From NCBI GenBank assembly GCA_903829325.1, contig CAIKPM010000033.1:1-40743 (forward strand): 40,743 nucleotides of DNA, read 5' to 3'. A model generated the notes under the pieces. The model was not told the DNA's origin and did not search any database. It saw only the letters and a program-made list of their open reading frames with translations. Of this stretch, positions 175-40,743 are shown piece by piece. Every line of letters starts with the position of its first letter. Positions within the stretch are counted from its first letter, which is position 1. The position numbers and the translations under genes are program-made. Origin of the DNA: an uncultured bacterium. Lineage in GTDB: Bacteria; Vulcanimicrobiota; Vulcanimicrobiia; Vulcanimicrobiales; Vulcanimicrobiaceae.

Positions 175-1353
175 CTAACGTGGTAATGGATCCGTCCCCT
201 CGCGGAGCAAATCAAGATAGGCCGTGTACTCGAAGATGCGTCCGCGTTGCCTACCCGTTAGTTCGCGAACGAGACCGAGGTGAGTCAATGTTTCGAAGCC
301 CTTCATCGTTGTCGGGTGACTGATCCCGGTTAGGCGAGATGCACGAGGTACCGACAGAATCGGCGTACTTTGGAGCAAATCGCAAAGTCTATGCAAGGTT
401 GCCGATGAGCGATGCCCGGTAATGCGCAGACGATCTTCGCGAATGAGTTTCACAATGCGCTCCGCCGTTCTCATTGCTTGCTTTGCGGTATCGCGAACGC
501 CCTCGAGAAAGAAGCGAATCCATGCTTGCCAATCGCCATGCGTGCGCGTTCGTTGCAAAAGCTCGTAATAGACATCGCGATGCTGCTTGAGATAGAGGCT
601 CAAATATAATAATGGGGCTTCGATAATGCCGAACGAGATAAGACTGAGCGTAATCAGGAGTCTGCCAAGGCGACCGTTTCCATCGAGATACGGATGGATC
701 GTTTCGAATTGCGCGTGTGCTCGCGCAATCCGTACAAGCGGCAACTCGGCACTTTCAGCGTTATTGAGGTAGCGTTCAAGATCAGAGAGACATGCTGCGA
801 TGTCGGTCGCGGGTGGCGGAACAAAGCGCGCATTGCCCGGTCGTGTGCCGCCGATCCAATTTTGCGAGGTACGTATCATTCCGGGTTGCCGTTCACGTCC
901 TCGACCATTAAGGAGTAGGCGCGCATGAATTTCATTGAAGAGGCGTGTGGAAAGCGGAAGCTGCTGCATCCGCTCCATTCCCAGACGCAAAGCCGCCACA
1001 TAGTCGGTAACGTCAACAGCATCGAGATCATCGGCGGTTTCATCGTCCTCGAAGAGGAGAACATCCGAAAGTGAGGACTGAGTCCCTTCAATTTGTGCTG
1101 AAAGCAGTGCTTCTTTACGAAGATACATGGTGATGAAGAGGTTCGCATCGGGAATAACCGGCGATAGCCCGTCAAGTCGCGCCAAAGCCCCGCGAGCTTC
1201 ATCCGCAAGCAGCGCATCTGCTCCCTGTAGCGTAAAAGGCTGAGCATCGACCAAGCTACCAGGAATAAATGCGTGGTAGGTTTCCCCTGAGCTCGGCACC
1301 GAGCGGAGCTCTCCGCTAGGCGAGGGCCAGGCCAGATCAATCGAACCTTTCAT
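175..1353 (-). CDS. Fic family protein (class II, probable AMP-transferase) with C-terminal winged helix
   Basis: This 392-aa protein has the Fic active-site motif HPYLDGNGRLGR (residues 220-231, catalytic His220). Upstream is the autoinhibitory (S/T)xxxE(G/N) motif, read as SAQIEG at residues 85-90, so it is a class II Fic protein whose own N-terminal helix blocks the ATP site. By family knowledge such proteins transfer AMP from ATP to a hydroxyl of a target protein; the target is unknown. The C-terminal ~100 residues look like a winged-helix DNA-binding domain (alternating helices, TGISHPTTMKG recognition-like helix), common in this Fic architecture. The ATG at 1353 lies inside a perfect inverted repeat and has no clear Shine-Dalgarno sequence, so the start is the least certain part. 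The gene stands alone, next to a probable integration scar. Confidence 0.88.
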   Translation of the reverse strand: MKGSIDLAWPSPSGELRSVPSSGETYHAFIPGSLVDAQPFTLQGADALLADEARGALARLDGLSPVIPDANLFITMYLRKEALLSAQIEGTQSSLSDVLLFEDDETADDLDAVDVTDYVAALRLGMERMQQLPLSTRLFNEIHARLLLNGRGRERQPGMIRTSQNWIGGTRPGNARFVPPPATDIAACLSDLERYLNNAESAELPLVRIARAHAQFETIHPYLDGNGRLGRLLITLSLISFGIIEAPLLYLSLYLKQHRDVYYELLQRTRTHGDWQAWIRFFLEGVRDTAKQAMRTAERIVKLIREDRLRITGHRSSATLHRLCDLLQSTPILSVPRASRLTGISHPTTMKGFETLTHLGLVRELTGRQRGRIFEYTAYLDLLREGTDPLPR

Positions 1354-1498: not shown

Positions 1499-1527
1499 GG
1501 TGCCCGCGCGGTGCCCCAATGGTGCCC
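1499..1527 (+). repeat. Three GGTGCCC boxes at exact 11-bp spacing
   Basis: GGTGCCC occurs at 1499-1505, 1510-1516 and 1521-1527, one helical turn apart. Regularly phased short direct repeats near a tRNA 3'-end fragment resemble the arm-type binding sites of tyrosine recombinases at att sites. No integrase gene is present in the window. The 1418-1819 interval holds only this element, the tRNA fragment and its terminator-like hairpin; the small open frames there show no recognisable protein. Confidence 0.5.
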
Positions 1528-1634
1528 ATCGCAGGCAACCAGCCTGACCCACCGGGAACTCGCGACCAGAAAAAACCTTGATTTTGCGCCGTTCACGAGC
1601 CATCCTGAGCCTTCCGCGCCTCCCTTTCCACCAT

Positions 1635-1657
1635 TTCGATTCCCGTAGGCGCCACCA
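1635..1657 (+). other. tRNA 3'-end fragment, probable attachment site scar
   Basis: These 23 nt read as a T loop (TTCGATT, 7 nt), the 3' half of a T stem (CCCGT, 5 nt), the 3' half of an acceptor stem (AGGCGCC, 7 nt), discriminator A and an encoded CCA: exactly the lengths of the last 23 nt of a tRNA. The preceding bases (1630-1634) cannot form the 5' T-stem strand ACGGG and no tRNA body is present upstream. Tyrosine-recombinase elements that integrate into tRNA genes leave such a 3' duplicate at one end. A hairpin with a T-run follows at 1662, where a tRNA gene's own terminator would sit. Confidence 0.5.
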
Positions 1658-1661
1658 ATTG

Positions 1662-1684
1662 AACCTTGTAACCACAAGGTTTTT
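1662..1684 (+). terminator. Hairpin plus T-tract after the tRNA fragment
   Basis: AACCTTGT (1662-1669) pairs with ACAAGGTT (1674-1681) around a 4-nt AACC loop, followed by TTT. The stem is 8 bp, perfect but only moderately GC-rich. Its position five bases after the CCA suggests it is the old terminator of the tRNA gene whose 3' end is duplicated here. Confidence 0.45.
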
Positions 1685-1819
1685 CGCTCCTACAGGGCCC
1701 GACGGGTGCAAAATAGTGGCCCTACGCTTGCGACACTTCCTAAATGTTCGGACCTCAGCACATCGCGATGCTCATCCTCCATGCCAGGTGTATCACCATA
1801 TCAGAAGCAAGCCAGTTCC

Positions 1820-2631: not shown

Positions 2632-2687
2632 TTGAAAATTACATGTATATATGATATTTTACTTAGGGTATGGACATGTATATATGA
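2632..2687 (+). promoter_or_regulatory. mmpAB promoter with two 14-bp operator repeats
   Basis: TTGAAA (2632-2637) and TATTTT (2655-2660), separated by 17 bp, form a good sigma-70-type promoter. The 14-bp sequence ACATGTATATATGA occurs twice, at 2641-2654, exactly filling most of the -35/-10 spacer, and at 2674-2687, overlapping the mmpA start codon. The copies are 33 bp (three helical turns) apart. Repression by the Xre-type MmpA binding both boxes is the natural inference. Confidence 0.65.
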
Positions 2688-3154
2688 ACATTGGTCAAGC
2701 CCACCTTGCTCGTAAGCAACTGGAACGTCGCCTTGCGCCACTCCGGGGAACGACGCTCATTCCTCCATCCAAAGGCTGGGTGAGAGCTATTCGAGAGTCT
2801 CTCGGTATGACGGCCCGCCAACTAGCCAGTCGTATGGGGGTTGCCCCATCGCGCGTCCCGACCATCGAAAAAGCGGAAGCGACAGGTGCGACCACATTGA
2901 GGACGCTGCAGCATGCTGCCGCGGCGATGGACTGTGCCTTCGTGTATGCCTTTGTGCCGCTCAAGCCACTTGACGACATTTTGCGGCAGCGCGCGATGCA
3001 AAAAGCTCGCAAGGACGTTTCGCGCCTTGACCACACCATGCGTCTTGAGAAGCAAGCACTTTTAAAATCCGACCTTAATGCCGAGCTGCAGCGCACGGTT
3101 GATAGCATCCTCACGGGCTCGTTGCGGGGCCTATGGGACGAAGAAGAAGCTTAG
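2684..3154 (+). CDS. Mobile mystery protein A, Xre-type HTH regulator/antitoxin
   Basis: The 156-aa protein fits the mobile mystery protein A family. Its N-terminal helical stretch contains HLARKQLERRL, followed by an Xre/Cro-type helix-turn-helix (about residues 40-85: MTARQLASRMGVAPSRVPTIEKAE, then LRTLQHAAAAMDCAFVYAFVPL) and a helical tail ending in LDEEEA-like acidic residues. In this family A is always paired with a Fic-domain B protein; A is presumed to repress the operon and possibly to neutralise B. The ATG at 2684 is preferred over the in-frame ATG at 2651 because 2651 lies within the -35/-10 promoter region. mmpB starts one base after its stop codon. Confidence 0.85.
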   Translation: MNIGQAHLARKQLERRLAPLRGTTLIPPSKGWVRAIRESLGMTARQLASRMGVAPSRVPTIEKAEATGATTLRTLQHAAAAMDCAFVYAFVPLKPLDDILRQRAMQKARKDVSRLDHTMRLEKQALLKSDLNAELQRTVDSILTGSLRGLWDEEEA

Positions 3155-3155
3155 C

Positions 3156-3746
3156 ATGCTTGATTCTCTGTTTGACGATGACGACGATGCAAACACGCCT
3201 CTCAGCGCTGAGGAACGTGAACAACTCATCCCTTCCTATATCACGCTGCGACACGAGTTGAATGAAGCTGAACAAGTCAATATCGGCGCGGCTCTACGTT
3301 GGGCCGTTGCACGCAAACGAAATGTTCTTGATCGGGACTTTCTTTGCAAGCTGCACCAGAGAATGTTCGGAGATGTATGGCGTTGGGCTGGGAAGTATCG
3401 CACTACCGCACGCAATATCGGTGTCGAAGCATATAGTATAGCAATGGATGTCCAGCAAGCTATTGAGGATGCGCAATACTGGGTTGAACACGGGACCTAC
3501 TCGGCAGACGAAATCGCTGTCCGGTTCAGCCATCGCCTGGTGGCAATTCATCCTTTTCCCAATGGAAACGGGCGTTTCTCGCGTCTTGTTGGTGATCTTC
3601 TTGCACGTCAGTTGGGGCAAACGTTCTTCACTTGGGGACAAGCAAATTTGGTTAATATTGGAGAGACCCGGGCGCGGTATATCGCGGCTCTACGTGTAGC
3701 AGATAATCATGATATTGGACCGTTACTGACTTTTGTTCGATCGTGA
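3156..3746 (+). CDS. Mobile mystery protein B, Fic-domain protein
   Basis: This 196-aa protein has a complete Fic active-site loop HPFPNGNGRFSR at residues 132-143 (catalytic His132), preceded by typical core helices (LCKLHQRMFGDVWRWAGKYRT at about 64-84). It matches mobile mystery protein B, the usual partner of the Xre-type A protein. Fic domains of this motif normally AMPylate proteins, but the target is unknown. No (S/T)xxxE(G/N) inhibitory motif is obvious within B; control would come from MmpA at expression or protein level. The ATG at 3156 lies one base after the mmpA stop, so the pair is translationally coupled; the longer frame to 3078 overlaps mmpA and is rejected. Confidence 0.87.
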   Translation: MLDSLFDDDDDANTPLSAEEREQLIPSYITLRHELNEAEQVNIGAALRWAVARKRNVLDRDFLCKLHQRMFGDVWRWAGKYRTTARNIGVEAYSIAMDVQQAIEDAQYWVEHGTYSADEIAVRFSHRLVAIHPFPNGNGRFSRLVGDLLARQLGQTFFTWGQANLVNIGETRARYIAALRVADNHDIGPLLTFVRS

Positions 3747-3809: not shown

Positions 3810-5672
3810 TTGAGTGAGAGATTACTTCAAGACCACGGGGAGCGAAGCATACCAAGCGTATTTCGGGCCACATTCGGACCACGCATCATTCATGAGAGCG
3901 GAGAATTTCGCTTGTGGGCACCTTCGGCGCAGCGGGTTGACGTTGTCATCGACGGAGGGCGGAGCACACATCCACTTTCGCGTGGCGATGACGGTTTTTA
4001 CCGCGGTACAGTTGGAGGCATCGGGCCGGGCTCACGCTATCAGTTTCGCATTAACGCTGAGCTGTTGGTCGCCGATCCAGCTTCACGGTATCAACCAGAA
4101 GGTGTGCATGGTCCCAGTGAGATTATCGATGAACAAGCCTACGCTTGGCAAGATGCCAACTGGCGCGGACGACCCTGGGAAACAACGATCCTGTATGAAC
4201 TGCACATCGGCACATTCACTGACGCGGGAACGTATCGCGCAGCGATTGAGCAACTCGATGCGCTCGTCGATCTCGGCATTACTGCCATCGAGCTTTTGCC
4301 GCTCTGGGAATCGCCCGGAACGCGGAATTGGGGTTACGACGGCGTGCTGCCGTACGCTCCGGAACATTGCTATGGGCATCCCGATGATCTCAAGGCCCTG
4401 ATCGATGCGGCACACGCCCGCTCGCTCATGGTTTTCCTGGACGTGGTCTATAACCACTTTGGACCCGAAGGGAATTATCTTCACACATATTCCCCAGAAT
4501 TTTTCACGAATCGTGTTCATACGCCATGGGGCGAAGCCCTCAATTTTAGCGATCCTGGCAGTGAGAGCGTACGGCGATTCTTTTTAGAAAATGCCTTGTA
4601 TTGGCTTGATGATTTCCACTTCGATGGTTTGCGTTTCGATGCTATTCACGAAATATACGATGCTAGCTTACCCACGTTTCTCGAAGAACTTGCGACAACC
4701 ATCAAACGCTCATTTATAGGCAAGCGCGAGGTGCATTTGGTCGTTGAAAATGACGATAATTGCAGTCAAATCCTTTCACGTCATCGGACAACAACCGACC
4801 GACGCTTCGATGCTCAGTGGAACGACGATGCGCATCATGCCTTGCACGTAACGGCTACCGGGGAAATCGACCATTATTATCGTGATTATGCTCAAGACCC
4901 GATTGCGGATCTGATGCGGGCATTAAGCGAAGGTTTCGTCTACCAAGGTGAGTTTTCGCAGCATCGAGGACGCTGTAGGGGATCAGTCAGCACGTGCTTA
5001 CCATTGACCTCATTTGTCTTTTTCTGCCAAAATCACGATCAAATTGGCAACCGTGCGCTTGGCGATCGGCTTGGTCATCTTGTTCGCCCGCTGATTTTGC
5101 AGGCGGTTGCCGCTTTAGTTACGCTTTCCCCGATGATTCCTCTGATCTTTATGGGCGAGGAATGGAACGCCTCATCGCCCTTTCTCTTCTTTTGCGACTT
5201 TCCCGATGAATTAGCACAACGCGTGACCGAAGGTCGGCGTCGGGAGTTTTCCGGATTTCCTCAGTTTGCGAACAGCGAAGGGCAGCAGCGCATTCCTGAT
5301 CCGGCCCTGCTCTCAACTTTTCTCGCTGCGAAATTGCGCTGGGCCGAACGCAGCGAGCCGCCGCATGCGTCACTGTTGGCCCTGTATCGTACACTCTTTG
5401 CGCTCCGGCGGCGAGAGATTATTCCACGTCTTGCACGCTTGCCCGAGCACGGTGTACAGAGTACCAGACTTGACGCGCGCAGCTTTCTGGTGAGTTATCA
5501 GTTGAATGATCGGAGCCGCCTTCATCTCTTTGCCAATCTGGGTGAGGATCGTTGCCTGCAAGCCCCACCTCTGCCTGGACGCCTGCTCTTTGCCACCGAT
5601 GCCGCAAACGCGACCAGCGCCGCGCCGTGGACGGTGCGTTGGTCGCTGCAACTTCCTGCGGCAAGCGGGTAA
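3810..5672 (+). CDS. treZ: Malto-oligosyltrehalose trehalohydrolase (TreZ)
   Basis: TreZ is a cytosolic GH13 enzyme that cuts trehalose from maltooligosyl-trehalose made by TreY. The 620-aa protein has an N-terminal beta-sandwich (FRLWAPSAQRVDVVI, about 32-47) and the four GH13 motifs: DVVYNH (about 211), DGLRFDAIHE with the Asp nucleophile near 276, VVEND with the Glu acid near 312, and CQNHDQIGN near 408. The only usable in-frame start upstream of the domain is TTG at 3810, directly after an in-frame TAA, with no strong ribosome-binding site; later TTG codons would cut into the domain. The spacing to treY is 8 bp, so the two are co-transcribed. Confidence 0.93.
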   Translation: MSERLLQDHGERSIPSVFRATFGPRIIHESGEFRLWAPSAQRVDVVIDGGRSTHPLSRGDDGFYRGTVGGIGPGSRYQFRINAELLVADPASRYQPEGVHGPSEIIDEQAYAWQDANWRGRPWETTILYELHIGTFTDAGTYRAAIEQLDALVDLGITAIELLPLWESPGTRNWGYDGVLPYAPEHCYGHPDDLKALIDAAHARSLMVFLDVVYNHFGPEGNYLHTYSPEFFTNRVHTPWGEALNFSDPGSESVRRFFLENALYWLDDFHFDGLRFDAIHEIYDASLPTFLEELATTIKRSFIGKREVHLVVENDDNCSQILSRHRTTTDRRFDAQWNDDAHHALHVTATGEIDHYYRDYAQDPIADLMRALSEGFVYQGEFSQHRGRCRGSVSTCLPLTSFVFFCQNHDQIGNRALGDRLGHLVRPLILQAVAALVTLSPMIPLIFMGEEWNASSPFLFFCDFPDELAQRVTEGRRREFSGFPQFANSEGQQRIPDPALLSTFLAAKLRWAERSEPPHASLLALYRTLFALRRREIIPRLARLPEHGVQSTRLDARSFLVSYQLNDRSRLHLFANLGEDRCLQAPPLPGRLLFATDAANATSAAPWTVRWSLQLPAASG

Positions 5673-5680
5673 AGCCAAAC

Positions 5681-8536
5681 ATGCTCCCCACGATCGTCCC
5701 TACGGCAACCTATCGCCTCCAATTCCACGCAGAGTTCACGTTCCAGGCAGCGCGAGTGCTGCTCGATTATCTTCATGCTCTCGGCATTTCTCATCTCTAT
5801 GCTTCGCCGTTTCTGAAGGCAGCCTCTGGTAGTCAGCACGGTTACGATATTATTGATCATACCGCGCTCAATCCCGAGATTGGCTCTCCGAATGATTTTG
5901 AACAACTCGTGCATGCACTGCATCAGCGCGGCATGGGCCAAATTCTTGATTTTGTGCCCAATCATATGGGTGTGGCCGGGGCGGAAAATAGCTGGTGGCT
6001 CGACGTCTTAGAATGGGGCGAATGTTCGCCCTTTGCGCCATTTTTCGATATTAATTGGCAGCCGGAACGTACCGGACTGCAGGGAAAAGTCTTGCTCCCC
6101 GTGCTTGGTGATCACTATGGATCGGTGCTCGAACGCAAGCAAATTTGCTTGCGTTTTGATGCGACCAGCGGCACCTTTCACGCGTGGTACTATGCACAGG
6201 TATTGCCCATCGCGCCGAAATATTATGCGGAGCTTTTGCAGCCTGCCCTGCTGAGCTTGCGCGAGGTGCTTGATGCGCAGGATCCCCAGCTCATCGAATT
6301 TACGCGGATCGTTACCGGCTTCGCGCAGCTCTGCCACGATGGTGACCATAATGCCAATCATGCACGCATGCAAGCAAAGACGCTCAAGCTCGCTCTGAGT
6401 ACCCTGGCAATGAAACCCTTGATAGCGCAGGCTGTTGATACTGCGCTCGAGCGCTTCGAGGCTTCGAGCGCTGCAGGGGTTGAGCGCCTGCATGCATTGT
6501 TAGAACGGCAATCATATAAATTGGCTTATTGGCGAGCAGCCTTTGACGAAATTAACTATCGACGTTTTTTTGATGTCAATGAGCTTGCTGGATTACGAAT
6601 GGAACTAGCCGAGTGCTTTGCCCTGACACATAATTTTATTTTTTCGCTCATCGCCAAGGGGCAGATTCAGGGGTTGCGGATCGATCATATTGATGGGTTA
6701 TTTGCCCCGGCTAGTTATTGCAAAATACTACAAGAACGAGCGGAAACGCTCAATCAACCGATCTATCTGGTGGTCGAAAAAATTATTGCCCGCTACGAAC
6801 GCTTGCCAGAAAACTGGCTGGTGGCGGGTACCACCGGTTATGAATTCATGAATATGGTCAATGGCCTTTTCGTCGATGGGCGCAATGAAGCGCGGTTTGG
6901 GCGTCTTTACAGTCGTATTGCACCGCATCACGCTGAATACGACGAATTGGTGATCGAATGTAAAAAACGCATCATGGATGTGGAGCTAGCAAGTGAATTA
7001 AACGTACTTGCGGACAATCTGGTCCGCATTGCTGTGCAAGACCTTCACTCTAGCGATTTTACTCGCAATAGTCTACGCCTTGCCTTGCGTGAAATCATCG
7101 CAAACTTTCCGGTCTATCGCACGTATATAACCGCGGAAGAAATCTCAAGCGAAGATCGACGTTATATCGAATGGGCTGTCGCTAGAGCGCGTAAAGCGTC
7201 GGTCGTGGTTGATGATGCAACATTTGATTTTGTGCGCTCCGTTTTGACGACCGATGCGATTCGCGGAGCAGACACGAACTATCACTACCGCGATGTCATT
7301 CATTTTGCAATGAAATTTCAACAATATACGTCACCTGTCACCGCCAAAGGTGTTGAAGATACATGTTTTTATCGCTACAACCGTTTGATTTCTCTCAATG
7401 AGGTCGGGGGCGATCCCAATCGATTTGGCACGACCGTCGGCGCATTCCACCGCTTTGCAGGAGAGCGATGGAACAAAACGCCCCATGCACTGTCCTCAAC
7501 CGCCACTCACGATGCGAAGCGTGGCGAGGATGTGCGAACCCGTATTGATGTCCTCTCAGAATTTCCTGGCGTGTGGACGCGTGCGTGTTCGCGTTGGTCG
7601 CGGTTGAACCACAGCAAGAAGCGTGAGCTAGATGGACGACTTGCACCTGAGAATAACGATGAATATTTTATCTACCAAACATTGATCGGTACGTGGCCAA
7701 TTGAGGATCTCGTAGAAACCGAAACGAGCGATGACGCTTTACGCCGCGACTATGCTAACCGGATTGAAGCATACCTGCGCAAAGCGCTGCGTGAGGCTAA
7801 AATCCATTCGAGTTGGGCGAATCCGCACCATGAATATGAAGAAGCAACCCTCAACTTTGCTCGACGAATCATGGAACGTTCGAGTAAGTCGCTTTTTCTG
7901 AGTGATTTCTTGCCCTTAGCCGCAAAGGTTGCGCGGATCGGCGCCTGCTCTAGTCTCTCCCAAACCGTCCTGAAATGCACGGCGCCGGGGATTCCTGATT
8001 TCTATCAAGGCAGCGAGCTGTGGGATTATTCTTTGGTCGATCCTGATAATCGACGACCGGTCGATTATCGCAAGCGCCAGAACATATTGGCCGAGCTCCG
8101 TGAAATGTATGCGCAGCGTGAGCATGACATCTTGGCTAGCGAGCTCTTGCGCTCGTGGCCCGATGGCAGAATTAAGCTCTACGTAACCTGGATATTGCTC
8201 CAACTGCGCATGAAAAAACGTGACAATTTTCTCTCAGGCGAATACCTGCCAGTCGAGGCAATCGGAAAATTTTCCGAACACGTTTGTGCTTTTACCCGTG
8301 ATGATATACTGGTTGTCGTACCGCGTTTGCTTGGCAAAGTGATGGGATCATTTGCAGAGCTGCCCCTTGCCGAATGCTGGGGCGATACTCAGCTTATTCT
8401 CCCAAATACCGCGGTATATCAAAACATCTTCACTAACGCCCGAGTCGAACCAATCCAAAGTGGCAATGCCTCACACCTTGCGCTCAAGCAAATTTTTGCG
8501 CATCTTCCGGTCGCTGTACTAGAACGGTTATCCTGA
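5681..8536 (+). CDS. treY: Malto-oligosyltrehalose synthase (TreY)
   Basis: TreY converts the reducing-end maltose of an alpha-1,4-glucan into an alpha,alpha-1,1 (trehalose) linkage by intramolecular transglycosylation; TreZ then releases trehalose. The protein is 951 aa, at the long end of the family. It starts with the diagnostic PTATYRLQFHAEFTF and shows the GH13 motifs DFVPNHMG (about 90-97), LRIDHIDG (nucleophile near 333), VVEKI (acid Glu near 365) and the TreY-specific THDAKRGEDVR (near 608). The ATG at 5681 is chosen because the family start follows immediately; the upstream frame overlaps treZ. treS follows after 3 bp. Confidence 0.95.
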   Translation: MLPTIVPTATYRLQFHAEFTFQAARVLLDYLHALGISHLYASPFLKAASGSQHGYDIIDHTALNPEIGSPNDFEQLVHALHQRGMGQILDFVPNHMGVAGAENSWWLDVLEWGECSPFAPFFDINWQPERTGLQGKVLLPVLGDHYGSVLERKQICLRFDATSGTFHAWYYAQVLPIAPKYYAELLQPALLSLREVLDAQDPQLIEFTRIVTGFAQLCHDGDHNANHARMQAKTLKLALSTLAMKPLIAQAVDTALERFEASSAAGVERLHALLERQSYKLAYWRAAFDEINYRRFFDVNELAGLRMELAECFALTHNFIFSLIAKGQIQGLRIDHIDGLFAPASYCKILQERAETLNQPIYLVVEKIIARYERLPENWLVAGTTGYEFMNMVNGLFVDGRNEARFGRLYSRIAPHHAEYDELVIECKKRIMDVELASELNVLADNLVRIAVQDLHSSDFTRNSLRLALREIIANFPVYRTYITAEEISSEDRRYIEWAVARARKASVVVDDATFDFVRSVLTTDAIRGADTNYHYRDVIHFAMKFQQYTSPVTAKGVEDTCFYRYNRLISLNEVGGDPNRFGTTVGAFHRFAGERWNKTPHALSSTATHDAKRGEDVRTRIDVLSEFPGVWTRACSRWSRLNHSKKRELDGRLAPENNDEYFIYQTLIGTWPIEDLVETETSDDALRRDYANRIEAYLRKALREAKIHSSWANPHHEYEEATLNFARRIMERSSKSLFLSDFLPLAAKVARIGACSSLSQTVLKCTAPGIPDFYQGSELWDYSLVDPDNRRPVDYRKRQNILAELREMYAQREHDILASELLRSWPDGRIKLYVTWILLQLRMKKRDNFLSGEYLPVEAIGKFSEHVCAFTRDDILVVVPRLLGKVMGSFAELPLAECWGDTQLILPNTAVYQNIFTNARVEPIQSGNASHLALKQIFAHLPVAVLERLS

Positions 8537-8539
8537 CAT

Positions 8540-11500
8540 ATGGAACGGTATGCCCAATGGTATAAAGACGCCATCATTTACCAGCTACATGTAAAAGCAT
8601 TTTCCGATTCAAATGGCGATGGAATTGGTGATTTTCGCGGATTAACTGCAAGGCTTGATCATATCAAAGAATTAGGTGCTACCGCGATTTGGCTGTTGCC
8701 GTTTTACCCCTCGCCATTACGCGACGATGGCTATGATATTGCTAATTATTGTGATGTTCATCCGTCGTACGGAACTCTGGAAGATGCAAAGGCGTTCATC
8801 GACGCGGCCCATGAACGCGAAATATATGTGATTACAGAATTGGTTATTAATCATACGTCTGATCAACATCCCTGGTTTCAGCGCGCCCGCCGTGCGCCGA
8901 TGGGATCAGAAGAACGCAATTTTTATGTTTGGAGCGATACCGACGAAGCCTACGCGGGCACTCGTATTATCTTTACCGATAGCGAGCCATCCAATTGGAC
9001 GTGGGATCCTGTGGCGCAGCAGTATTATTGGCATCGCTTCTTTGCCCACCAACCTGATCTCAACTTTGCGAATCCTTTCGTCATTCGTGCAGTCATCGAC
9101 GTCATGCGCTTTTGGCTGAATCTGGGAGTTGATGGGATGCGGCTCGATGCGGTGCCCTATTTATGCGAGCGTGAGGGGACGACGAATGAGAATTTGCCTG
9201 AGACGCATGCGATCCTGAAAATCTTGCGTGCGGTCCTGGATGAAGAATATGAGCATCGAGTTTTTTTGGCGGAAGCCAACCAATGGCCTGAAGATGTGGC
9301 TGCCTATTTCGGTGATGATGATGAATGTCATATGGCGTTTCATTTTCCATTGATGCCACGTTTGTTTATGTCCATTGCCGAAGAAGATCGCTATCCTATT
9401 GTCGATATCATGCGACAGACGCCAGAAATTCCCCCAGCCTGTCAATGGGCTATCTTTTTACGAAACCATGATGAAATGACGCTGGAGATGGTCACGGACC
9501 GCGAGCGTGATTATATGTACGGTATCTATGCCAGCGAACCGCGGGCCCGTATAAACGTCGGCATTCGCCGACGTTTAGCGCCGTTGATGGAAAATGACCG
9601 ACCCAAAATCGAACTACTCACCAGCCTGCTCATGTCGATGCCTGGCACACCAGTTATCTATTATGGCGATGAAATCGGGATGGGCGACAATATTTTTCTC
9701 GGAGACCGCGACGGCGTACGGACGCCGATGCAATGGTCTATTGATCGCAACGGGGGATTTTCTCTCGCTGATCCACACCGACTGTATTTGCCGCCGATTA
9801 TGGATCCGATTTACGGATTTCAAAGTGTCAACGTGGAAACCCAAAGTCGCAATTCATCTTCCTTAGTCAATTGGATGAAGCGTTGTATCGCCGTACGTAA
9901 GCAACATCGACTTTTCGGTCGCGGAAAACTCACGTTTCTGACTCCGGCTAATCGCAATATTCTGGCCTATTTGCGAGAAAACGATGACGAAGTTATCTTG
10001 TGCGTGGCCAATCTTTCCCGCTCGCCACAAGCGGTAGCCCTGGATCTCTCGCGCTATACTGGCCGTACGCCCATCGAATTGCTCGGTCGCAGCCCTTTTC
10101 CGGCAATTACCGATGACCGCTATATCTTGACGATGGCCGGGCATGGATTCTTTTGGTTTGAATTGGCCGAGAATGCGGTCGCACCGATCTGGCAACAGTC
10201 GTTGCCGAGTGCCAGACCGGAATATTACACACTGGTGTTACCGCATGGCATCGGCGATCTCGCTTCAGCAAAGATTCTCGCGAGTCTCGAACATATCGTG
10301 ATCTCAAGTTTTTTACCAACGCAGCGTTGGTTTCTTGATCGCGCGTTTCGTTCTATGAGCATTGCGACGCTGCACAGTTTGCCCGAAGCATACGGCGCGG
10401 CGTACGTAGCGAGCATCGACGTAGACAGCGATGGAACAAGTGCCACGACACGCTATTTGCTGCCCTTGCTGCTGTATGATACCAGCCACGATGATGCCCC
10501 GGGAGCAATAGCGCGAGTGGCCATGGCGCGCACCCGAACGGGATCGCACGAGGGGCTGCTGTATGATGCATTCGCCGACGACAATTTCGTGCGCAGACTG
10601 GTCACCACTGCAGTGCAACAGGCTTCGTTCCCAGCATTATCTGAGGACGCCACCGTGCGGCGTTACGAAGAAGAGAAACGCCATAGTTGGGCAATTGTCG
10701 CCGACGCCTACATTCTCAAGGGTTACCGCTTGCAGCATGCTGGTGTTGCTGCCGAAGTCACCATGCTCAGGCACCTCGCTAGCCTTCCCAAGCAAACCCT
10801 CGTGCCGCAACTCATCCGCATTATCGAGGACGAGCAGGGACAACCGCTCGCCAGTGTTCATCGCTTTATCCACACCCAGGGCGATCTCTGGTTATTACTG
10901 CAAAATTATCTTTCACGCTTTATCGACCGCTACCGTGACATGGCGGCCCCCGCAAACGAAACGAATAAACATGAAGTTATCCTCACCCGCGCGCGTCGTC
11001 TCGGCGTTCGGGTCGGTGAATTGCATACTCTCCTTGCACAATCAACGACCGACTCAAATTTTTTGCCTGAACCTTTGCAACAAAGCGATTGTGAAAAGTG
11101 GCTGAGCGAGGCAACGGCCGCGCGGCGAATTGCGTGGGAAAAACTCGCTACCTATCTTGCGAATACTGCGCACAATATTCATACCGACCTCGGTGCTTTG
11201 CTTGAGCGCGGCGATGAAATTGATCAGCGACTGCACACGCTCCTCAGCGGCGAATATACGATGCATAACACGCGGATTCATGGTGATCTGCATTTAGGAG
11301 CAATCTTAGTGTGTGGTCATGATTTTCGTTTTGTTGATTTCGAGGGCGATCCTCAGCGTTTGCTTCGTCAGCCGGGGCAGAAGGATTCACCATTGCGCGA
11401 TATCGCGGACTTGTTGCGTTCACTCGACTACGCCGCAAGCAGTATCATGCTTGGTATGGGTTCGGTGGCGATCCACCATGATGCAGCTATAGACGTCAGC

Positions 11501-11752
11501 ATCCGCGATTGGACAAAACGCAGTATTGAGGCTTTTCTCCAAGGCTATCAGGCAAGCACCAGTGGCTTGTCCTCATTACCGCGCGATCCCGCTGCGTATG
11601 AAAAACTGCTCGAATTCTTCCTGATCCTCCGCAGCCTCACCGACCTCGCCTACGAACTCGATTACCGCCCAGCCTGGGTCCGCATCCCCGCGACCGCCCT
11701 CACCAGACTCCTTAAGCGCGGCAACGAACCATTACAGGCTGCGATCGGGTAA
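8540..11752 (+). CDS. treS: Trehalose synthase-maltokinase fusion (TreS-Mak/Pep2)
   Basis: The 1070-aa protein joins two enzymes. Residues 1 to about 550 are a GH13 trehalose synthase (trehalose/maltose isomerase): it opens with WYKDAIIYQLHVKAFSDSNGDG and shows ELVINH near 100, GMRLDA with nucleophile Asp203, AEANQ with Glu245 and RNHDE with Asp311. Residues about 570-1070 are a maltokinase with an aminoglycoside-phosphotransferase-like fold: the catalytic loop HGDLH has Asp916 and the metal-binding VDFEG has Asp933. Together they convert trehalose to maltose and then to maltose 1-phosphate, the donor for GlgE in the known alpha-glucan pathway. No glgE or glgB is in the window. It is the last gene of the trehalose operon. 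Confidence 0.95.
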   Translation: MERYAQWYKDAIIYQLHVKAFSDSNGDGIGDFRGLTARLDHIKELGATAIWLLPFYPSPLRDDGYDIANYCDVHPSYGTLEDAKAFIDAAHEREIYVITELVINHTSDQHPWFQRARRAPMGSEERNFYVWSDTDEAYAGTRIIFTDSEPSNWTWDPVAQQYYWHRFFAHQPDLNFANPFVIRAVIDVMRFWLNLGVDGMRLDAVPYLCEREGTTNENLPETHAILKILRAVLDEEYEHRVFLAEANQWPEDVAAYFGDDDECHMAFHFPLMPRLFMSIAEEDRYPIVDIMRQTPEIPPACQWAIFLRNHDEMTLEMVTDRERDYMYGIYASEPRARINVGIRRRLAPLMENDRPKIELLTSLLMSMPGTPVIYYGDEIGMGDNIFLGDRDGVRTPMQWSIDRNGGFSLADPHRLYLPPIMDPIYGFQSVNVETQSRNSSSLVNWMKRCIAVRKQHRLFGRGKLTFLTPANRNILAYLRENDDEVILCVANLSRSPQAVALDLSRYTGRTPIELLGRSPFPAITDDRYILTMAGHGFFWFELAENAVAPIWQQSLPSARPEYYTLVLPHGIGDLASAKILASLEHIVISSFLPTQRWFLDRAFRSMSIATLHSLPEAYGAAYVASIDVDSDGTSATTRYLLPLLLYDTSHDDAPGAIARVAMARTRTGSHEGLLYDAFADDNFVRRLVTTAVQQASFPALSEDATVRRYEEEKRHSWAIVADAYILKGYRLQHAGVAAEVTMLRHLASLPKQTLVPQLIRIIEDEQGQPLASVHRFIHTQGDLWLLLQNYLSRFIDRYRDMAAPANETNKHEVILTRARRLGVRVGELHTLLAQSTTDSNFLPEPLQQSDCEKWLSEATAARRIAWEKLATYLANTAHNIHTDLGALLERGDEIDQRLHTLLSGEYTMHNTRIHGDLHLGAILVCGHDFRFVDFEGDPQRLLRQPGQKDSPLRDIADLLRSLDYAASSIMLGMGSVAIHHDAAIDVSIRDWTKRSIEAFLQGYQASTSGLSSLPRDPAAYEKLLEFFLILRSLTDLAYELDYRPAWVRIPATALTRLLKRGNEPLQAAIG

Positions 11753-40674: not shown

Positions 40675-40743
40675 ATGTCAAACGAGCAACCACACCGTCG
40701 TAGCTTTAAGGCCGCTGAGAAGGCTGCAATCGTCTCTGAGTAC
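40675..40743 (+). CDS. Transposase N-terminus (IS3-type OrfA), cut by window end
   Basis: The ATG at 40675 (AGGA about 9 bp upstream) begins MSNEQPHRRSFKAAEKAAIVSEY, which is the start of the helix-turn-helix of IS3-family OrfA proteins. The frame runs off the window. A sequence beginning TGTCAATATGACGTGAGACC at 40611 (or TGTCCCTATG at 40601) is a possible left end of the element, since IS3 ends start with TG, but the other end is not visible. Confidence 0.6.
   Translation, partial: MSNEQPHRRSFKAAEKAAIVSEY

Follow-up and report, generated by a model that had tools for sequence, protein, structure and literature searches.

A displaced tRNA-Glu 3' end with phased GGTGCCC boxes as a probable right attachment end of a tRNA-targeted integrative element in an uncultured member of the Vulcanimicrobiota

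The stretch of DNA analysed here (the window; 40,743 bp, the entire contig C33 of its assembly) carries at positions 1499-1684 a scar that is best explained as the right attachment end of an integrative element targeted to tRNA-Glu(UUC), and most likely as a junction within a tandem array of such elements (probability about 0.92). The scar combines three short phased boxes, a tRNA 3' end and a terminator-like hairpin. A sequence-only reading of the same DNA had already recognized in it the layout of the distal end of a tRNA-integrated element, and comparison with relatives bears this out: dozens of displaced tRNA-Glu ends there share the layout, down to the distance and spacing of the boxes.

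On the forward strand of the window, direct GGTGCCC boxes occupy positions 1499-1505, 1510-1516 and 1521-1527. Their spacing of 11 bp and the gap of 107 bp between the third box and position 1635 are, base for base, as first read from the sequence, and the first box starts 136 bp before the tRNA core (-136). Direct repeats at roughly one helical turn and at a fixed distance from a core are characteristic of lambda-like arm sites, and the boxes, with their spacing of 11, are accordingly putative right-arm (arm-type) integrase sites. The attachment core, TTCGATTCCCGTAGGCGCCACCA (1635-1657, forward strand), is a displaced tRNA-Glu(UUC) 3' end comprising the T loop, the 3' strands of the T stem and the acceptor stem, the discriminator A and CCA. 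No full tRNA was found in the window by ARAGORN, and an Rfam search of the window returned no match at the gathering score. Directly after the core lies the hairpin with its T-run (1661-1684, forward strand), which proved to be real, with a 9-bp stem and a z-score of -2.9 for the region; in relatives, most tRNA-Glu copies and fragments are likewise followed by a hairpin of this kind. Past the boxes, the window also aligns with the right ends G026:230764 and G014:158273 of relatives. The alignment includes GGCAACC (1534..1540, forward strand), 13 bp from the start of the third box, which has the same offset in G026:230764 and a related counterpart, CGCAACC, in G014:158273. It also includes GAAAAAACCTTGATT (1569..1583, forward strand), about 62 bp before the core, which contains the right-end motif AAAnCCTT. 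The 58 right-end flanks of relatives contain AAA(N)CCTT 12 times in all, and 10 of these occurrences are at -70 to -61.

The relatives in question belong to Candidatus Eremiobacterota/Vulcanimicrobiota, and homologous integrases with the same target are present in Candidatus Eremiobacterota records; NCBI places this name under Vulcanimicrobiota. The core is found with at most one mismatch in 82 of 99 family genomes, often in multiple copies, one of which is the intact tRNA. Several family genomes possess two to five copies on one contig; for example, G009 and G026 each have five, spread over 49 kb and 27 kb, respectively, and G029 and G036 have three each. In at least 15 relatives, the tRNA and a fragment share a replicon and an orientation and lie as far apart as the ends of an island; in the window's own assembly they are on different contigs. 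Contigs ending at the core or a few bases from it were seen in G004, G018, G019 and G020, as is expected where a repeated attachment core breaks the assembly. As judged from these genome sequences, the tRNA-Glu 3' end is a hotspot for islands across this bacterial family. Genome G063 (e.g., L188 and L170) holds approximately 25 displaced tRNA-Glu 3' ends, of both Glu(UUC) and Glu(CUC) types, as well as a 208-bp island whose two ends both carry ATTGGC boxes.

Phased boxes at these sites follow a common rule. A survey of 92 cores in the regions examined scored perfect direct repeats of at least 6 nt at spacings of 7-24. Upstream of displaced fragments (i.e., at right ends), 27 of 29 repeats with a spacing of 11 lie at -142 to -120, in agreement with the position and spacing of the window's boxes, while downstream (i.e., at left ends) 32 of 40 start at +40 to +60; no other spacing in the range shows such clustering. 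The boxes of these repeats are 6-10 bp long, and their words vary by island, including CGTCTAACA, CGGTTGCC, TGGGCAC, GTGGCAC, GGGTGCA, TGCTTAT, TGGTCAC and ATTGGC. Within one island, the left-end word recurs at the right end without a change of orientation, with at least 5 nt in common in 13 of the 17 islands for which both ends were scored; in inverse orientation, the ends of these 17 pairs never have more than 4 nt in common. Because many sites come from related genomes and cannot each be counted as an independent event, the permutation was additionally restricted to distinct words; the pairing of end words gave p = 5e-5 for nine non-redundant pairs. The unpaired exceptions probably sit in arrays with lost or nested ends. 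Finally, the integrase beside G026:235469, the nearest intact relative, combines a Phage_integrase catalytic domain with an Arm-DNA-bind match (PF14657) slightly below the curated cut-off, which makes arm-type sites the natural reading of the boxes.

The word GGTGCCC itself was sought more widely. No left end with GTGCC boxes turned up in the 99 family genomes, and the cognate left end of the GGTGCCC island was thus not found. Among viral contigs, seven have three GGTGCCC boxes at 11 bp, mostly as low-complexity repeats. In one of the seven, the unrelated IMG/VR contig L057, GGTGCCC is repeated on the minus strand three times and twice at 11-bp spacing near 1880-1905 and 2080-2100; these boxes adjoin a tyrosine integrase gene, a suggestive instance of the same box word at an integrase. 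On another IMG/VR contig, L304, GGGTGCA boxes flank the core at -125 and +46, and an integrase lies about 4 kb further on; this may be a free attP, or else the point where like islands meet.

Evidence for a tandem junction comes from the DNA to the right of the scar. There, CGACGGGTGCAAAA (1700..1713, forward strand) resembles a relic left-end box, lying at +42 with ACGGGTGCA at +44 and a decayed second box. When the window's right flank is aligned with left ends of relatives, the same word appears at the same offset in G026:214161, G030:43480 and G010:18921, with a match of 12 to 14 nt. The flank looks like a GGGTGCA-type left end, now worn, that belonged to an older island, and this resemblance suggests that the scar is probably a junction of two islands in a tandem array, not a simple boundary between island and chromosome. 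Alternatively, the scar may be the end of a single island, followed by the original chromosome and the original tRNA terminator, with the likeness to left ends arising by chance or from a common terminator. Such a boundary would fit the finding that neither a second scar nor an integrase remnant lies to the right of the core, there being no integrase remnant left anywhere in the window, as well as the beginning of the metabolic genes TreZ, TreY and TreS at 3810. It does not readily explain why CGACGGGTGCAAAA should sit at the exact left-end box offset of three relatives, a match of that length in a fixed place, and we regard it as rather unlikely, although it is the strongest of the alternatives.

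Several further searches concerned the same flank. The supposed older island should have its boundary between 1730 and about 3800, but none was found there, and comparison of synteny between the window's right side and the tRNA-Glu regions of relatives gave nothing useful. At the treZ loci of 20 relatives, no scar was present in the upstream DNA available, where gene order differs and several contigs end early. Likewise, no relative with an empty site was found. The trehalose genes of the window (3810-11752) are ordered TreZ-TreY-TreS/maltokinase-like; several relatives instead have a TreS-like match about 3 kb upstream of TreZ. A search of relatives for the glyoxalase gene yielded distant homologues only.

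The source of the displaced fragment is indicated by the host's own tRNA set, which numbers 44 in a genome assembly of 1.89 Mb in 70 contigs. The tRNA-Glu(UUC) of this set ends in TTCGATTCCCGTTGGCGCTACCA (C67:1000-1022) and differs from the fragment at two positions, while the closest of the other tRNAs differ at 5 of the 20 nt compared. The fragment is thus displaced from a tRNA of the same genome, as in Islander-type islands, and, followed upstream, it resembles tRNA-Glu only as far as the first T of the T loop, consistent with a crossover in the T-stem region. The sequence-only reading had described exactly the last 23 nt of a tRNA; the tRNA end from T loop to CCA stands, and the match is 21 of 23 rather than exact. 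That reading also held that the absence of any tRNA ending in the 23-mer would count against it, and indeed none of the 44 own tRNAs has this end. Taken literally the objection applies, but its intent does not, given the 21 of 23 positions matched by tRNA-Glu(UUC). Similarly, a tRNA with acceptor GGCGCCT had been anticipated; the actual acceptor is GGCGCCA, in a tRNA-Glu(UUC) that does have an integrase remnant alongside.

An exact match might be sought in another tRNA that was broken by the insertion, such as tRNA-Arg(CCG), the only expected isoacceptor missing from the 44 own tRNAs. The exact 23-mer would indeed require an acceptor GGCGCCT, and the missing gene may simply fall in an assembly gap. 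This origin is very improbable: among the tRNAs of 148 relatives, none has the 23-mer as its 3' end, even with one mismatch allowed; furthermore, a tRNA with a GGCGCC acceptor and this 3' end is absent from the 99 family genomes, and all scars in relatives comparable to the window's are Glu ends. The exact 23-mer is otherwise present only at L073 7214-7236, in a genome of another genus (G048), where it lacks phased boxes, lies 7.2 kb downstream of a tRNA-Glu gene in the same orientation and also codes for the final residues of an open reading frame. Finally, although boxes and core are both short, a chance encounter of a tRNA-like 23-mer with unrelated short repeats can practically be dismissed, as the expected number of cores in the window is 0.00 at up to three mismatches, GGTGCCC is the sole 7-mer in the whole window repeated three times at 8-15 bp spacing, any such triple was seen in only 1 of 100 windows (~1%) in a first-order Markov simulation of the window, and boxes and core stand at the family-wide distance.

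The intact tRNA-Glu(UUC) is found at 1000-1074 of a separate contig, C67, which is not joinable to C33 in this assembly; its 3' side lies 1 kb from the contig end. Directly downstream is a Phage_integrase (PF00589) gene that points at the tRNA and ends approximately 100 bp from its 3' end. This tyrosine integrase is split into two overlapping frames by a frameshift and truncated near the contig end. A terminator-like hairpin also directly follows the tRNA. An integrase next to an intact tRNA is another hallmark of Islander-type islands, and this arrangement marks the left end of an island integrated at the tRNA. The sequence-only reading had looked for the full tRNA to the left of the window, with an integrase beside it. 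The integrase remnant is indeed beside the intact tRNA; the tRNA, however, is on another contig, the window being a whole contig, and it may or may not lie to the left. Pairing of the C67 integrase with the window scar was considered and rejected on box words, as this integrase-side left end bears GCAACC boxes rather than GGTGCCC. The difference indicates that the C67 end and the scar probably derive from two different islands, and by the word rule the C67 left end would be a third end, not that of the GGTGCCC island. By eye, the start of an IS3-like transposase OrfA (RRSF..) can be made out at both contig ends (window 40678-40743 and C67 1-80), and insertion sequences probably caused the assembly breaks of C33 and C67.

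Genes close to the scar include two of the Fic type. The first (175..1353, minus strand) encodes a Fic_N/Fic-domain protein with Pfam matches PF13784 and PF02661 over the cut-off; its position left of the scar suggests that it may be island cargo next to the right end. A perfect 30-bp inverted repeat with a 12-bp loop (1346-1417) covers its start codon and may represent an operator, an inverted duplication or an assembly fold-back. The second Fic gene (2651-3746) lies to the right of the scar, directly behind a gene for an HTH_3 protein, with which it forms a toxin-antitoxin-like pair.

Taken as a whole, a tandem junction would have arisen as follows. A tyrosine integrase would have joined the element's core, which equals the tRNA 3' end from T loop to CCA, to the identical chromosomal sequence, thereby rebuilding an intact tRNA at the island's left end and displacing the old 3' end to the right end, at 1635-1657. 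The DNA left of 1635 would then be island DNA, and the GGTGCCC boxes within it would be bound as arm-type sites, on one helix face, by the N-terminal arm domain of the integrase. The scar would join the right end of this island to the relic left end of the older GGGTGCA-type island, whose own insertion would have come first and supplied the 3' half of the scar as a once working tRNA 3' end. The remainder of the tandem array may have been lost or may lie across assembly gaps.

Its anatomy, shared with the attP sites of mycobacteriophages CrimD and Pixie and with Islander-type islands, assigns the scar to a known kind of site. Islander defines an island by an intact tRNA, a displaced fragment and an integrase (PMC4383910). 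Islands of this type that use the T-stem/loop attachment sub-site are alike in having the tRNA rebuilt at one end and its 3' fragment at the other, a tyrosine integrase by the tRNA and occasional tandem arrays (PMC4383910). In the present genome, by contrast, scar and intact tRNA occupy separate contigs, and the integrase is disrupted. Among its 3,919 islands, Islander reported tandems of three or more in only four cases, each member needing its own integrase (PMC4383910), a stricter criterion than that behind the two relatives described here with five ends in a row. In CrimD and Pixie, short arm-type sites stand in pairs or triplets on either side of a core derived from a tRNA or tmRNA: the Pixie attP has an arm-site pair on one side and three sites on the other in direct orientation, the CrimD attP has a terminator hairpin between core and arm, and related integrases of this type have differing arm words (PMC3203893). 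The window scar has the same anatomy in a different phylum and with a different core (tRNA-Glu), and unlike in these phages, a single site stacks many islands whose box words can be compared between the two ends. Bivalent tyrosine integrases of the lambda type likewise use a core and distant arm sites, and the nearest intact relative possesses Phage_integrase, Arm-DNA-bind_4 and a SAM-like N-terminal part; the copy in the present genome is frameshifted and truncated at the contig end, and arm binding is predicted here. What is new is that box words pair throughout the family at a single shared tRNA.

It is tempting, albeit doubtful, to suggest that tRNA-Glu arrays constitute a natural library of arm-site words, in which each island would carry its own word of 6-9 bp, repeated every 11 bp on both arms, and the core would be shared. 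If so, arm words could distinguish stacked islands and keep an integrase from excising its neighbours in the array. The rule itself (a core with boxes near -136 and near +46 that share one word) can be used to find and pair island ends in fragmented metagenome assemblies. Paired words and the integrases adjacent to them amount to a data set on the choice of DNA by integrase arm domains, and such data also bear on how many islands can use one tRNA without interference.
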